A stretch of DNA of 36,483 bases from Thermoplasmata archaeon (GTDB taxonomy: Archaea > Thermoplasmatota > Thermoplasmata > Lutacidiplasmatales > UBA184): contig DAHUXZ010000003.1 of the NCBI GenBank assembly GCA_027315455.1, positions 1 to 36,483 of the forward strand. Direction: 5' to 3'. Made by a program: the position numbers and the translations under genes. This document shows positions 29,974 through 36,483 of the stretch, piece by piece; the stretch's first letter is position 1, and the number at the start of each line of letters is the position of its first letter. The notes under the pieces were generated by a model, which ran no database searches, had not been told where the DNA came from, and was given only the letters and a program-made list of their open reading frames with translations.

Positions 29974-32172
29974 TCAGCGACGGCCCCGGCCGGCCGATCG
30001 CCGCATGCTCCGTGAGGAGCTCGAGGCGCCGGGTGCACCGGCGCGCTCCCACTCCTCCTCTCCGACGGCGGCCGCGGCGAGCGGGGTCGCGGGCGGCCGG
30101 CCGCGGTGGTGGCGCCGTCGGTCCCACGTGACCGCGCCGACGATGCCGCCGACCGCGAGCGCCCCGGCGAAGATCCCCCACGGGTACCAGCCGGGCGGCG
30201 GGGGCGGCGGAGGAGGTGGAGGTGGGCTGCCCACGACCACGGAGAGGTTCGTCGCGACCTCGTTGCCGGTCGCGTCGATGACCGTCGCGGTGACGTTGAA
30301 GGTCCCCGGCCGTGGGAAGGTGTGGCTCACCGCGGTTCCGGAGGCGACGGCGCTGTCCCCGAACGACCAGTAGACGGTGTACGGGGGCGTCCCGCCGGAG
30401 GGGGTGGCCGAGAAGTTGACGGGGGCACCGGTGAACGCCGGCGAGGTCGCCGCCCGGGCGGTGAGATGGAGGACCGGGTGGACCACGACCGCGCCGGACC
30501 AGATCCCTTCGCCCTGGACCGCGTCGGTCGCGGTGAGATTGATTGGGTATGAGCCGGGGGTGGTGTAGAGGTGCGTCGCGTTGGCGCTCGTCGCGCTCGC
30601 GCCATCCCCGAACGTCCACACGAACCCGTACGGGGCGGTCCCTCCCGCCGCGGAGCCGAGGAAGGTCACCGGACGTCCGGCATCGACGGGGTTCGGCCGG
30701 ACCGTCGCGCTGACCGAGGGTCCGGCGACGACGCTCACGAGGATGGTCGAGAGCGCCCACGCGCCCGAGGCGTCGGTCGCGTTGACCGTGGCCTTGAAGC
30801 TCCCGACCTGGGCGTAGGCATGCGTCGTCGCGCTGAGGAACGCGCTCGTCCCGTCGCCGAAGAGCCAGAGGTAGATGTACGGGGCCGTCCCGCTCGCGGC
30901 CGTCGCCGAGAAGGCAACGGGCTGGCCGACCTCGACCACCGTCGGGAGGGCGGTCGGCGTGACGGTCAGGATCGGCTCGAGGACCCACGTATCCCCCGGT
31001 GACGGGGCCGCACAGGGAAGGCAGCCGGTCGGGGTGCCGCCGAACAGCAGCAGGTACGGCCAGCGGCGCGGCCCCGGCCCGGGCCAGGTGTTCGTCGTCG
31101 GAACGAAGGCGGCGCCCGACCGTCCCGGCGGCCCCGACCCCAGGGTGGAGGTGACGTCGGTCCAGCGACCGCCCGCGTAGCGCCACGTGTCGGAGATCGG
31201 ACCCCGCGAGCTGTTGCCCCCGACCAGGAAGGTCGCGTTCGGTCCGCCGTCATAGCCGAGCCCGGCGCCGAAGCGGGCCGGGGGGAGGAGCGGGGGCAGA
31301 AGGAGCGTCCACCGGTCCCGCACGAACGACCAGGAGTCGTTGAGCGGGCAAGCGCTCGCCCCGCACCCGTCCACGAGGAGCGCGTAGGCGTCGCCCGCGT
31401 CGTAGACGAACCCCGCCCCCCAGCGCGCGGGCGGCGCCGCGCCGACAATCGCCGTGAGGTCCGTCCAGTTGCCGTCGAGGAACCTCCACGTGTCGTTCAT
31501 CGGACAGACGGTCCCGCAGCCACCGAACAGGACCATCTCGTTGTCCACGTGGTCGTAGACGAGGCCGGCGCTCCGGCGCGGGGCGGGCGCGATGGCCCCG
31601 GTCAGGTTCGTCCAGCGCCCCCCGAGGAAGCTCCAGGTGTCGTTGAGGAGGTGGCCCGGCCCGGCCCATCCACCGAAGAGGAGGGCGTAGCCGTTCCGGT
31701 CATCGAAGACGAAGCTCGCCTGCGTGCGGGCCGGTGGCTGGGCGCTCAGGTTGGTGAGGTTCGTCCAGGCGCCGCCGGAGTACTTCCAGGTCTGGGCCGG
31801 CGCCGGGCACGCTTTCGCGGTGCAGCCCCCGAACATGACGAGGTAGTTGTCGATCGGGTCGTAGAGCATCGACGCACCGGTGAGCGGCGGGGGAGCGATC
31901 CTCATCCCGCGGGAGACGTTGTACCAGGTTAGCGGTCCGCCGGCGAGGGGCGACGCAGGCGCGGCAGCGGGGAGGCATCCGCCGGCCGGGGCGACGCAGG
32001 GGCCGGCGTCACCCGTGACCGGGCCCGGCGCGGCGGGGACCGGAGGGGAGAGCACCGACGGGGCCGAAGGAACGCCCCCGGAGGGAGGCAGCAGCACCGC
32101 TAGGGCGAGCAGCGTGGCCAGCGCCAGCAGGCGGGGGGAACGGCCGACCGGTGAACGTATGCGGGGACGCAT
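29974..32172 (-). CDS. Secreted kelch plus PKD protein, C-terminal TM
   Basis: Signal-like LLALATLLALAVLLPPSGG; kelch blades with GGCTAKACPAPAQTW / GGCGTVCPMNDTW; three PKD modules; poly-Pro stalk; TM YPWGIFAGALAVGGIVGAVTW. Confidence 0.92.
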   Translation of the reverse strand: MRPRIRSPVGRSPRLLALATLLALAVLLPPSGGVPSAPSVLSPPVPAAPGPVTGDAGPCVAPAGGCLPAAAPASPLAGGPLTWYNVSRGMRIAPPPLTGASMLYDPIDNYLVMFGGCTAKACPAPAQTWKYSGGAWTNLTNLSAQPPARTQASFVFDDRNGYALLFGGWAGPGHLLNDTWSFLGGRWTNLTGAIAPAPRRSAGLVYDHVDNEMVLFGGCGTVCPMNDTWRFLDGNWTDLTAIVGAAPPARWGAGFVYDAGDAYALLVDGCGASACPLNDSWSFVRDRWTLLLPPLLPPARFGAGLGYDGGPNATFLVGGNSSRGPISDTWRYAGGRWTDVTSTLGSGPPGRSGAAFVPTTNTWPGPGPRRWPYLLLFGGTPTGCLPCAAPSPGDTWVLEPILTVTPTALPTVVEVGQPVAFSATAASGTAPYIYLWLFGDGTSAFLSATTHAYAQVGSFKATVNATDASGAWALSTILVSVVAGPSVSATVRPNPVDAGRPVTFLGSAAGGTAPYGFVWTFGDGASATSANATHLYTTPGSYPINLTATDAVQGEGIWSGAVVVHPVLHLTARAATSPAFTGAPVNFSATPSGGTPPYTVYWSFGDSAVASGTAVSHTFPRPGTFNVTATVIDATGNEVATNLSVVVGSPPPPPPPPPPPGWYPWGIFAGALAVGGIVGAVTWDRRRHHRGRPPATPLAAAAVGEEEWERAGAPGASSSSRSMRRSAGRGRR

Positions 32173-32241: not shown

Positions 32242-32721
32242 CTACGGGCCCCCGAGGAACGCCGCCAGCAGGACGACGCCGAAGGTCGCGACCATCGAGA
32301 GGAGGGCGAGGAGGAGGTTCGCCCGGCGCCAGGGTGCGAGCGAGGCCGGCGAGGCCCCCGCCTCCCGCCGTCGGCGAAGACGCGGGCCGATGACGAACGT
32401 GTGGAGGCCGCTCGTGAGGAGGACGAGCCCGACCAGAAGGACCTTCGCCTCGAGGACCGGCTCCGCGCCCAGCGAAGTACCGGGGGGAAGGTACCAGCTG
32501 AGGTTGTAGAGGCCCGTGAGGATCGTGATCCCGAGGGCCGGCCACATGACCCACGACATGGACCGGGCGACGGCCGCGACGAGGGGGACGGCCGCCTCCG
32601 GCTCCGAGCGGTGGTGGCGAGCGAGCGCGGCGGTCGTCACCGCGAGCGCGATCGAGCCGCCGACCCAGATCGAGGCACCGACCAGGTGCACCCCCAGGAC
32701 GAGGGAGTCGAGCAGCGACAC
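32242..32721 (-). CDS. Four-TM CopD-like membrane protein
   Basis: LVLGVHLVGASIWVGGSIAL, ALGITILTGLYNLSWYL, EAKVLLVGLVLLTSGLHTFVIGPRL, LLLALLSMVATFGVVLLAAFLG. Confidence 0.8.
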   Translation of the reverse strand: MSLLDSLVLGVHLVGASIWVGGSIALAVTTAALARHHRSEPEAAVPLVAAVARSMSWVMWPALGITILTGLYNLSWYLPPGTSLGAEPVLEAKVLLVGLVLLTSGLHTFVIGPRLRRRREAGASPASLAPWRRANLLLALLSMVATFGVVLLAAFLGGP

Positions 32722-33623: not shown

Positions 33624-34316
33624 ATGACCGCCCGATCGAGCCCCCGAGAACCCGGGGCGAGCCCCGGTGCCGAGGCGACCTTGCGGGTCGCGGTGCGCCC
33701 GTCGGCTACCGGCCCGCTGCGGGAGGCCCTGGCGGCGCGAGGGGACGGCGCCGTCGTCCGCCTCTTCATCGAGCCCGGCATCCACCCCCGCGTCGGCATG
33801 CTCGTGGACCGGCCCGGGCCGTCGGACGTTCGCACGCGCGTCGGGGAGATCGAGGTCGTCGTCGATCCGGCGGGCCTGCGGTTCCTCCAGGACGCGACGA
33901 TCGATTACGTGTCGGAGGGCGGGGGCGCCGGCTTCCGGGTGACCGGGCCGAACCTCCCGTCGACGGAGCCGGGGCCGTCGGCCGCCCCGGCCGCTGCGGC
34001 CCCGGGCGACCGGTCCGCCCGCGAGAGCGAGATCCGGTTCGGCCTCAAGAAGGTCTTCGACCCGGAGATCCCGATGAACATCCTGGACCTCGGCCTCATC
34101 TACGGCATCGACTGGCCGGCCGACGACCACGTCGCGATCCGGATGACGATGACGAGCCCGGGCTGTCCCGTGGCCGATCTCCTCGTCGACGAGGTCCGCC
34201 AGGTCGCCCTGGGCGTCCCCGGGGTCCGCCAAGCGGACGTCGAGGTGGTGTGGGACCCGCCTTGGGGCCCCGACCGGATGAGCGAATTCGCGCGGCGACA
34301 GTTCGGCTACGCGTAG
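33624..34316 (+). CDS. SufT/MIP18-family (DUF59) protein with N-terminal degenerate A-type (HesB/IscA-like) domain
   Basis: C-terminal IRFGLKKVFDPEIPMNILDLGLIYGIDW...MTMTSPGCPVADLLVDEVRQVALGVPGVRQADVEVVWDPPWGPDRMSEFARRQFG; N-terminal RTRVGEIEVVVDPAGLRFLQDATIDYVSEGGGAGFRVTGPN. TATA-like GTAAAT 27 nt before ATG. Confidence 0.9.
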   Translation: MTARSSPREPGASPGAEATLRVAVRPSATGPLREALAARGDGAVVRLFIEPGIHPRVGMLVDRPGPSDVRTRVGEIEVVVDPAGLRFLQDATIDYVSEGGGAGFRVTGPNLPSTEPGPSAAPAAAAPGDRSARESEIRFGLKKVFDPEIPMNILDLGLIYGIDWPADDHVAIRMTMTSPGCPVADLLVDEVRQVALGVPGVRQADVEVVWDPPWGPDRMSEFARRQFGYA

Positions 34317-34430
34317 GCGCCGGCCGCCGAAGGCGGGACAGCGCCGTTACACCGAGCGCGGTCGTCGGGCAGTGTATCCCGGGTGTAGCGGGAGCCGGCG
34401 TTTAAGAAGGCCCAGGTGTCGTCCGGTGCG

Positions 34431-36483
34431 ATGGTCCCCGCCCCGCAGCGCTCCCGACCGGGGGGGCTCCCCGGCTCCTGGGGAGGCCGTTCCCCCGAGG
34501 GGCGCGCGCGGACCGCCCTCGCGGTGGCCATCGTCATCGGCCTGTGGGTCCCGTCGATCGGGGTCTACGTAACCGGGGGGGCCGCCGGCAGCGTCCACGA
34601 CCGTGTCGCCCCGGCCGCGGGGCGGGGCGTTGCGATCCCCGGGAGCGGGGCGAGCGCCTTGGCCGAGGGATGCCGCGGCACCCCCTCGGCCGCCTGCGCC
34701 CCGGCGCGCGCGCCACTGAACGGCGGAAGCGGCCTCATCTGGGCGAACCTCACCGCGCCGTTCGACCCCGCCCCGTCGGAGCGCGCGTTCGCCGCGATGG
34801 CCTACGACCCCTCGATCGCCCGGACCGTACTCTTCGGCGGCCTCGGACCGTACGGCACTGCCCTCGGCGACCTCTGGCAGGCGGCGGATGGAAGCTGGAG
34901 CGCGTGGTACCCTTCGGGGGAGTCCGCGCCCTCGGCCCGCTGGGGTGCGGCGTTCGTCTACGATGCGGCGGACAGCGAGCTGGTCCTCTTCGGGGGCCAG
35001 AACGCGACCGGGTACCTGAGCGACAGCTGGACCTTGAACTCCACCGGCTGGCATCGGGTCACCACGGACTCGGGGCCGTCGTCGCGGGCGTTCGCTGCGG
35101 CGACCTACGACCCGGCGGAGAGCGGGCTCCTCCTGTTCGGCGGGGCCTCCGCGACCCTCTCCGGCCGGACGCACCTGCTCAACGACACCTGGCTCTTCCG
35201 CGGCGGCTCGTGGGTCAACCTCTCCGCCTCGCTCCACGGCGCCGCCCCACCTTCCCTCATGCAGGGGGCGCTCGGCTACGACCCCAGCGCGGCGGCGGCG
35301 GTCCTCTTCGGCGGCGAGATCGCCACGGCCCCGGACGCCTGGTCCTCATCGACCTGGCAGTTCACGGGCGACGAGTGGTCCAATCTCACCCTCTCGCTCG
35401 CGACCTCTCCCGGAGCGCGGGGCGGCGCCGCCATCGCCTACGACCCGCAGGCCGACGGGCTCGTCCTGTTCGGGGGAGCGGGGGCGACGGGAGCGACCGA
35501 CACCACGTTCGAGTACGGGCCGAACGGCTGGCAGAACGTGAGCGGGGCCGGTGCGCGTCCGGCCCCGAGGGCCGGGGCGGCGATGACCTACGAGCCGGGA
35601 ACCCTACGGGCGGTCCTCTTCGGCGGCTACGTCCCGGGCACGTTCACCACGTACGGTGACACGTGGGGCTACGGGCTCCCTCCGCTCGCGGTCGTCCTCT
35701 CCGCGACCCCGACGGCCGGCGTCGGGCCGCTCAATGTCTCCTTCGCGCTCAACGTCACGGGGGGCGCCGCACCCTACGCGATCCAGTGGTCGTTCGGCGA
35801 CGGGGGTCTCGCGCTCAACGTCACCGCGGTCGAGCACACCTACTCCGCCGTCGGGAACTACTCCGCCACCGCCTCGGTGACGGATGCCACGGGGACGAAC
35901 CTCGCCCGGAGCCTCGTCATCGCGGTCATCACCGGCTGGCAGAACGAGCACCAGTGGGCCGAGGTGACGACCTTAACGGCGTCGCCCGGGCCCCGGACCT
36001 CCCCGCAGATGGCCTACGATCCGGATCTGCGGGCCGTCCTCCTTTTCGGTGGGTACTCCCCGACGGACACCGCGCTCGCGGACACGTGGGAATTCGTCAA
36101 CAACGTCTGGCTCAACCTCACCGGCAACCTCACCGCCGCCCCGCCGGGGCGCTGGGGGGGTGCTCTCACCTACGACCCCGCCGACCATCTTCTGGTCCTC
36201 TTCGGGGGCCGGGGCCTCGGTGGGTTCTACAACGACACCTGGGGGTTCACCGCCGCGGGGTGGGAGCGGCTTATGCCGTCGATCGCTCCCTCGGCCCGCG
36301 CCTTCTTCGCCATGACCTACGACGCGGCGGACGGCTACGTCCTCCTCCAGGGGGGCGGCTACAGCCTCCTCACCGGCGGTCCGTGGACCGTCCTCAACGA
36401 TACGTGGGAGTACCGCGGCGGCAGCTGGGTGAACGCGACGCGCAGCGTGACGGACGCGCCGCCGCCCCTGATCGGCGCCCTGT
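34431..36483 (+). CDS. Secreted kelch plus PKD protein, 3'-truncated by window edge
   Basis: ATG 34431 with TATA-like GTTTAAGAA (34400-34408). Read in frame to the last base: MVPAPQRSRPGG...AYDPSIARTVLFGG...PKD (YAIQWSFGDG)...YEFVNNVWLNLTGNLTAAPPG...EYRGGSWVNATRSVTDAPPPLIGAL. Absent from the ORF track because it has no stop in the window. Confidence 0.92.
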   Translation, partial: MVPAPQRSRPGGLPGSWGGRSPEGRARTALAVAIVIGLWVPSIGVYVTGGAAGSVHDRVAPAAGRGVAIPGSGASALAEGCRGTPSAACAPARAPLNGGSGLIWANLTAPFDPAPSERAFAAMAYDPSIARTVLFGGLGPYGTALGDLWQAADGSWSAWYPSGESAPSARWGAAFVYDAADSELVLFGGQNATGYLSDSWTLNSTGWHRVTTDSGPSSRAFAAATYDPAESGLLLFGGASATLSGRTHLLNDTWLFRGGSWVNLSASLHGAAPPSLMQGALGYDPSAAAAVLFGGEIATAPDAWSSSTWQFTGDEWSNLTLSLATSPGARGGAAIAYDPQADGLVLFGGAGATGATDTTFEYGPNGWQNVSGAGARPAPRAGAAMTYEPGTLRAVLFGGYVPGTFTTYGDTWGYGLPPLAVVLSATPTAGVGPLNVSFALNVTGGAAPYAIQWSFGDGGLALNVTAVEHTYSAVGNYSATASVTDATGTNLARSLVIAVITGWQNEHQWAEVTTLTASPGPRTSPQMAYDPDLRAVLLFGGYSPTDTALADTWEFVNNVWLNLTGNLTAAPPGRWGGALTYDPADHLLVLFGGRGLGGFYNDTWGFTAAGWERLMPSIAPSARAFFAMTYDAADGYVLLQGGGYSLLTGGPWTVLNDTWEYRGGSWVNATRSVTDAPPPLIGAL

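Follow-up and report, generated by a model that had tools for sequence, protein, structure and literature searches.

A cysteine-free Fe-S carrier domain joined to SufT in a family of uncultured Thermoplasmata archaea

Uncultured members of one Thermoplasmata family encode a protein in which an A-type Fe-S carrier domain, stripped of its ligand cysteines, is joined to SufT, and the locus raises the question of where such a domain came from and what a carrier fold devoid of ligands may do for a maturation factor. The gene is found at 33624..34316 on the forward strand of the window, by which we mean the whole stretch of 36,483 nucleotides that was analysed; its translation contains no internal stops and yields a product of 230 amino acids plus stop, and its ATG start (MTARS...) is common to the nearest relative, found in G007.

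Domain architecture and loss of the carrier ligands

The protein consists of an A-type (IscA/HesB-fold) domain in residues 19-112 (33678..33959, +), a Pro/Ala-rich linker in residues 113-129 (33960..34010, +) and a SufT/MIP18 (DUF59) domain in residues 130-230 (34011..34313, +). That the N-terminal half is HesB/IscA-like had been proposed in a sequence-only reading of this DNA, and the notion is borne out by several comparisons, since residues 24-111 match the NCBIfam IscA model TIGR02011 (E 1.5e-7) and a sequence search of the PDB retrieves E. coli IscA (1r94, E 2.7e-8), although the match to Pfam PF01521 (Fe-S_biosyn; E 0.009, 16.7 bits, or 18.6 with the half alone) stays below the curated cut-off of 26.3. 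In profile-profile comparisons the fused A domains furthermore match the family's own cysteine-rich carriers with a probability of 99.8%, canonical carriers with 99.0% and the A domains of archaeal NfuA with 97%. Modelled alone with AF2 the A domain reaches a pLDDT of 91 and finds IscA with Foldseek (E 8e-7, TM about 0.8), and the full-chain AlphaFold model, built from 23 aligned sequences, has an overall pLDDT of 85 and a pTM of 0.67, with low pLDDT at residues 116-121 of the linker. The full-chain model finds the DUF59 structures 3cq1 and 3lno (E 5e-9 to 3e-8) as well as IscA (E 4e-7). The C-terminal half, read from the outset as MIP18/SufT, indeed belongs there, matching PF01883 (FeS_assembly_P; E 7e-15, 55.4 bits, curated cut-off 23.5) and TIGR02945 (SUF_assoc; E 1.9e-32) and having the DUF59 fold.

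The two regions that hold the cluster ligands in A-type carriers are both altered, as the same reading had noted. The GGCSG loop is replaced by PGIHPRVGM (residues 51-59; 33774..33800, +), and the linker occupies the site of the CGC tail. Among 38 non-identical full-length fused proteins the loop reads G-x-x-P-x-x-x-M, with G52 and P55 invariant and M59 nearly so, and carrier-ligand cysteines are found in none, so that the fused A domain lacks all three ligand cysteines of A-type carriers and is by this measure not a functional carrier. Six of the 38 have one additional A-domain cysteine, at position 73, 89 or 95 and never at a ligand position, and one of these six has a further cysteine in SufT at position 164. 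The cysteine-bearing stand-alone carriers of the same genomes retain their cysteines in loop and C-terminal tail. Invariant residues of the fused A domain are A28, R46, G52, P55, D81, L88, F104 and P109. In the window protein the only cysteine is Cys181 (TGT codon, 34164..34166, +), which is located in the MIP18 domain in the context TSPGCP, as had been pointed out before; it corresponds to the conserved reactive cysteine of SufT and is present in 38/38 fused proteins, as are D146-P147-E148 (DPE) and T177.

The SufT half shares a complete DUF59 domain, the DPE motif, TSPGCP, a W-PPW tail and the fold with the SufT/DUF59/MIP18 proteins (S. aureus SufT, Mtb Rv1466 and eukaryotic CIA2/FAM96). The A domain in turn resembles the IscA/SufA/ErpA carriers in fold and homologous sequence but differs from them in the missing ligands and in the linker that stands for the CGC tail. 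DsrR is an IscA homologue that lacks cysteines. The protein from Allochromatium vinosum is likewise matched by fold (2k4z, E 1.2e-5); unlike the fusion, however, it stands alone, belongs in a sulfur-oxidation context and has no SufT partner domain. None of the SufT architectures S1-S9 surveyed in PMC4982691 has an A-type N-terminal domain, S5 having a U-type scaffold domain N-terminal to SufT, and an Nfu N-terminus fused to SufT has been reported from Oligotropha. In the literature on pairings of A-type, NfuA, HesB or MIP18 domains with SufT we found no description of the present fusion; the component domains are already known, and it is the pairing and its independent origin that look new.

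Distribution and origin of the fusion

The fusion first came to light in the window's genus when the proteins of 101 related genomes were searched, and among 390 genomes of the phylum a profile search revealed no clear members outside the window's family. Within the family, surveyed in 56 genomes from seven genera that are each at least 85% complete, it is far from confined to one assembly, since 24 genomes from five genera encode it: 14/34 in g1 (among them G051, where an A-domain fragment at the end of a contig was taken as evidence), 4/4 in g32, 1/1 in g34, 1/3 in g35 and 4/4 in g36, with 0/5 in both g33 and g168. Two copies are found in G482. Most fusion carriers retain a stand-alone SufT, and since the window's genus keeps a separate SufT, the fusion does not serve as the general SufT in that genus; in the four g32 genomes no stand-alone SufT was matched, which leaves the fusion as the only SufT detected. 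A scan of 84,980 species genomes with two narrow patterns, which could miss distant members, gave 24 loci, all titled as Thermoplasmata save one mislabelled record, and a plasmid search gave matches in 248 records, none of them covering 80% of the query. A bacterial host for the locus L087 ('bacterium clean3188') was rejected, as it shares its neighbours with G482:C27, a contig assigned to the same genus by the genome set.

In a tree of A domains all fused rows fall in one clade (100/98), which also includes a stand-alone cysteine-poor domain, L167 (G446:C36:103151-103435), perhaps a fusion that has lost SufT. The fused A domains and the family's cysteine-rich carriers are split from canonical carriers and NfuA (100/94). 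In a tree of SufT domains the fused ones likewise group as a single clade (95/72, not starred), which lies among the SufT proteins of the family and is nested with the stand-alone SufT of g34-g36 (100/99), not with that of g1. These topologies indicate an apparently single fusion event, from which we infer that a duplication of SufT took place in the family and that one copy was then linked, on one occasion, to a domain derived from a carrier; g1 may have acquired the fusion by transfer from within the family.

The cysteine-rich carrier paralogue, which is the nearest relative of the fused cysteine-free domain, is widespread in the family and often adjoins the gene of the canonical carrier. 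It has an expanded Gly/Cys-rich ligand loop (e.g. GGGGCGCGGGGGGCGSGGCGSGGGG) and additional tail cysteines, and is represented by L063 (G000:C38:3811-4011, -) and its relatives L045-L054, L091, L093, L097, L101 and L166.

The pairing had been likened to NfuA, and as a parallel in design this is apt. Like NfuA of E. coli and Azotobacter vinelandii, the fusion has an N-terminal A-type domain without ligand cysteines followed by a second Fe-S maturation domain. The second domain is however SufT and not the cluster-binding Nfu, Pfam finding no Nfu domain (PF01106) in the window protein, and the likeness is one of analogy only, as forcing the fused rows and the dead domain of NfuA into one clade is rejected by the AU test (p = 0.012). 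The fused domain is accordingly not regarded as a descendant of the dead domain of NfuA, and with the family's cysteine-rich stand-alone carrier as nearest kin, the resemblance is convergent. Nfu domains were furthermore detected in none of 71 genomes of the window's genus, and none of the 171 positive genomes in the phylum sample of 390 belongs to the window's family. Archaeal NfuA-like proteins, in which a degenerate A-type domain precedes Nfu, do occur in family f49 of the same phylum (L058, L060, L062).

A probable docking role and its alternatives

The Fe-S machinery of the window's genome comprises two SufB/SufD-type proteins, one NifU_N/SufU-type protein, two Mrp/ParA-type proteins above cut-off, a canonical carrier adjoining a cysteine-rich carrier, and one stand-alone SufT in addition to the fusion. 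Of the roles suggested earlier, that of an Fe-S scaffold is unlikely, since the protein lacks cluster ligands and has a single cysteine, and that of a targeting adaptor fits best. The fusion is probably a SufT maturation factor in which the non-ligating A domain serves as a docking adaptor. In NfuA the cysteine-lacking A-type domain targets the protein to apo-proteins, and both domains are needed (PMC8593673). By analogy, the fused A domain would act as NfuA's dead domain does, with SufT in place of the cluster-binding Nfu: it may have retained the protein-binding surface of the carrier and could pair with stand-alone A-type carriers, most likely with the related cysteine-rich paralogue in the form of hetero-oligomers, or with apo-clients, and docking would hold the reactive SufT cysteine beside the site of transfer.

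A-type folds are oligomers, and the invariant residues of the fused A domain look structural as much as interactive. Together with the homodimerisation of Mtb SufT (PMC9045647) this could suggest that the A domain is a structural or dimerisation module which only stabilises SufT and has no part in choosing partners. The stand-alone SufT of the same genomes does however manage without such a module, and the nearest relatives of the A domain are carriers, so we consider a purely structural function unlikely. It may also be envisaged that the A domain holds iron or a cluster by way of non-cysteine ligands, or together with the SufT cysteine across a dimer, the protein itself being the carrier; the SufT cysteine is indeed invariant, the loop has been reshaped and not lost, and His or Arg do occur in it. 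Among the 38 fused proteins, however, the loop has no His, Asp or Glu that is kept from genus to genus, its invariant residues being G52 and P55 alone, and Mtb SufT binds neither Fe nor cluster, its single cysteine instead contacting SufS, SufU, aconitase and SufR (PMC9045647), which makes a carrier function quite improbable.

The patchy occurrence in g1 and the stand-alone SufT kept by most carriers of the fusion might likewise be taken to mean that gene duplication has left a neutral or decaying by-product, redundant with the separate SufT. Both halves are however under purifying selection, the dN/dS of all measurable pairs being 0.11-0.35 for the A domain, which in most pairs is the slightly faster-evolving of the two, and 0.06-0.32 for the SufT domain. 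Pseudogene decay was rejected, as neither domain reaches a ratio of 0.36 in any measurable pair, and the spread over five genera and the sole-SufT status in g32 furthermore leave the by-product explanation, already disfavoured, with very little probability indeed.

A natural fusion of SufT to a carrier fold that does not carry points to a partner or surface that SufT needs, and it offers a separable pair of domains for testing. The independent parallel in NfuA furthermore suggests that the ligand-free A-type domain is a docking module which Fe-S maturation systems can reuse.

Neighbouring genes and a possible link to stress

At nine loci from four genera (a g1 subclade, g34, g35 and g36) the fusion is found near a divergently read membrane protein and a DUF2249 protein. 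A hemerythrin-like protein is encoded within 6 kb at eight of the nine, most have an HTH_10-type regulator, and three have a flavohemoprotein-like reductase nearby. Haloarchaea induce DUF2249 proteins during denitrification, and one of these is a fusion with an Fe-S carrier P-loop protein (PMC11218638). All 14 DUF2249-bearing genomes have the fusion and none of 32 fusion-free genomes has DUF2249 (Fisher p 3e-7, ancestry ignored), a co-occurrence that is confounded by shared ancestry. The hemerythrin/DUF2249 block also contains two large conserved membrane proteins (L090:10712-11827, -, and L090:12352-13569, +), for which the label 'NnrS-like' was dropped, as they have no Pfam or NCBIfam match and their PDB matches are at chance level. 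In g32 the fusion is found at all four loci near genes for a nickel superoxide dismutase, a protease resembling its maturation protease, a thioredoxin and an aRF1-like protein, and this gene order is conserved (L094, L095, L096, L179).

The neighbours in several lineages, though not in the window's own, are hinting at Fe-S upkeep under nitrosative or oxidative stress. The fusion might accordingly keep up or rebuild clusters under such conditions, which is the weakest step of the proposed mechanism. The link cannot be extended to every member, since neither the window gene nor the main g1 group, in which the fusion lies downstream of an alpha/beta hydrolase gene, is adjoined by stress genes. 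The most far-reaching scenario would be that Nfu-free archaea have rebuilt the NfuA design from parts of their own, with a carrier copy related to the cysteine-rich form losing all cysteines, joining SufT and pairing with its cysteine-rich sister, so that clusters are delivered or rebuilt when nitrosative or oxidative stress sets in; taken as a whole we find this conceivable but rather doubtful. Concrete predictions do follow from the neighbourhoods with stress genes and from g32, in whose genomes no SufT other than the fusion was detected.

In the window itself a neighbouring gene (32242..32721, -) encodes a CopD-like membrane protein (PF05425, E 4e-9), a relative of which (37-39% identity) also adjoins the fusion in G002 and G047. 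The region is flanked by two large probable surface proteins (29974-32172, -, and 34416-36482, +), in which kelch-like and PKD-like repeats are recognisable by eye.
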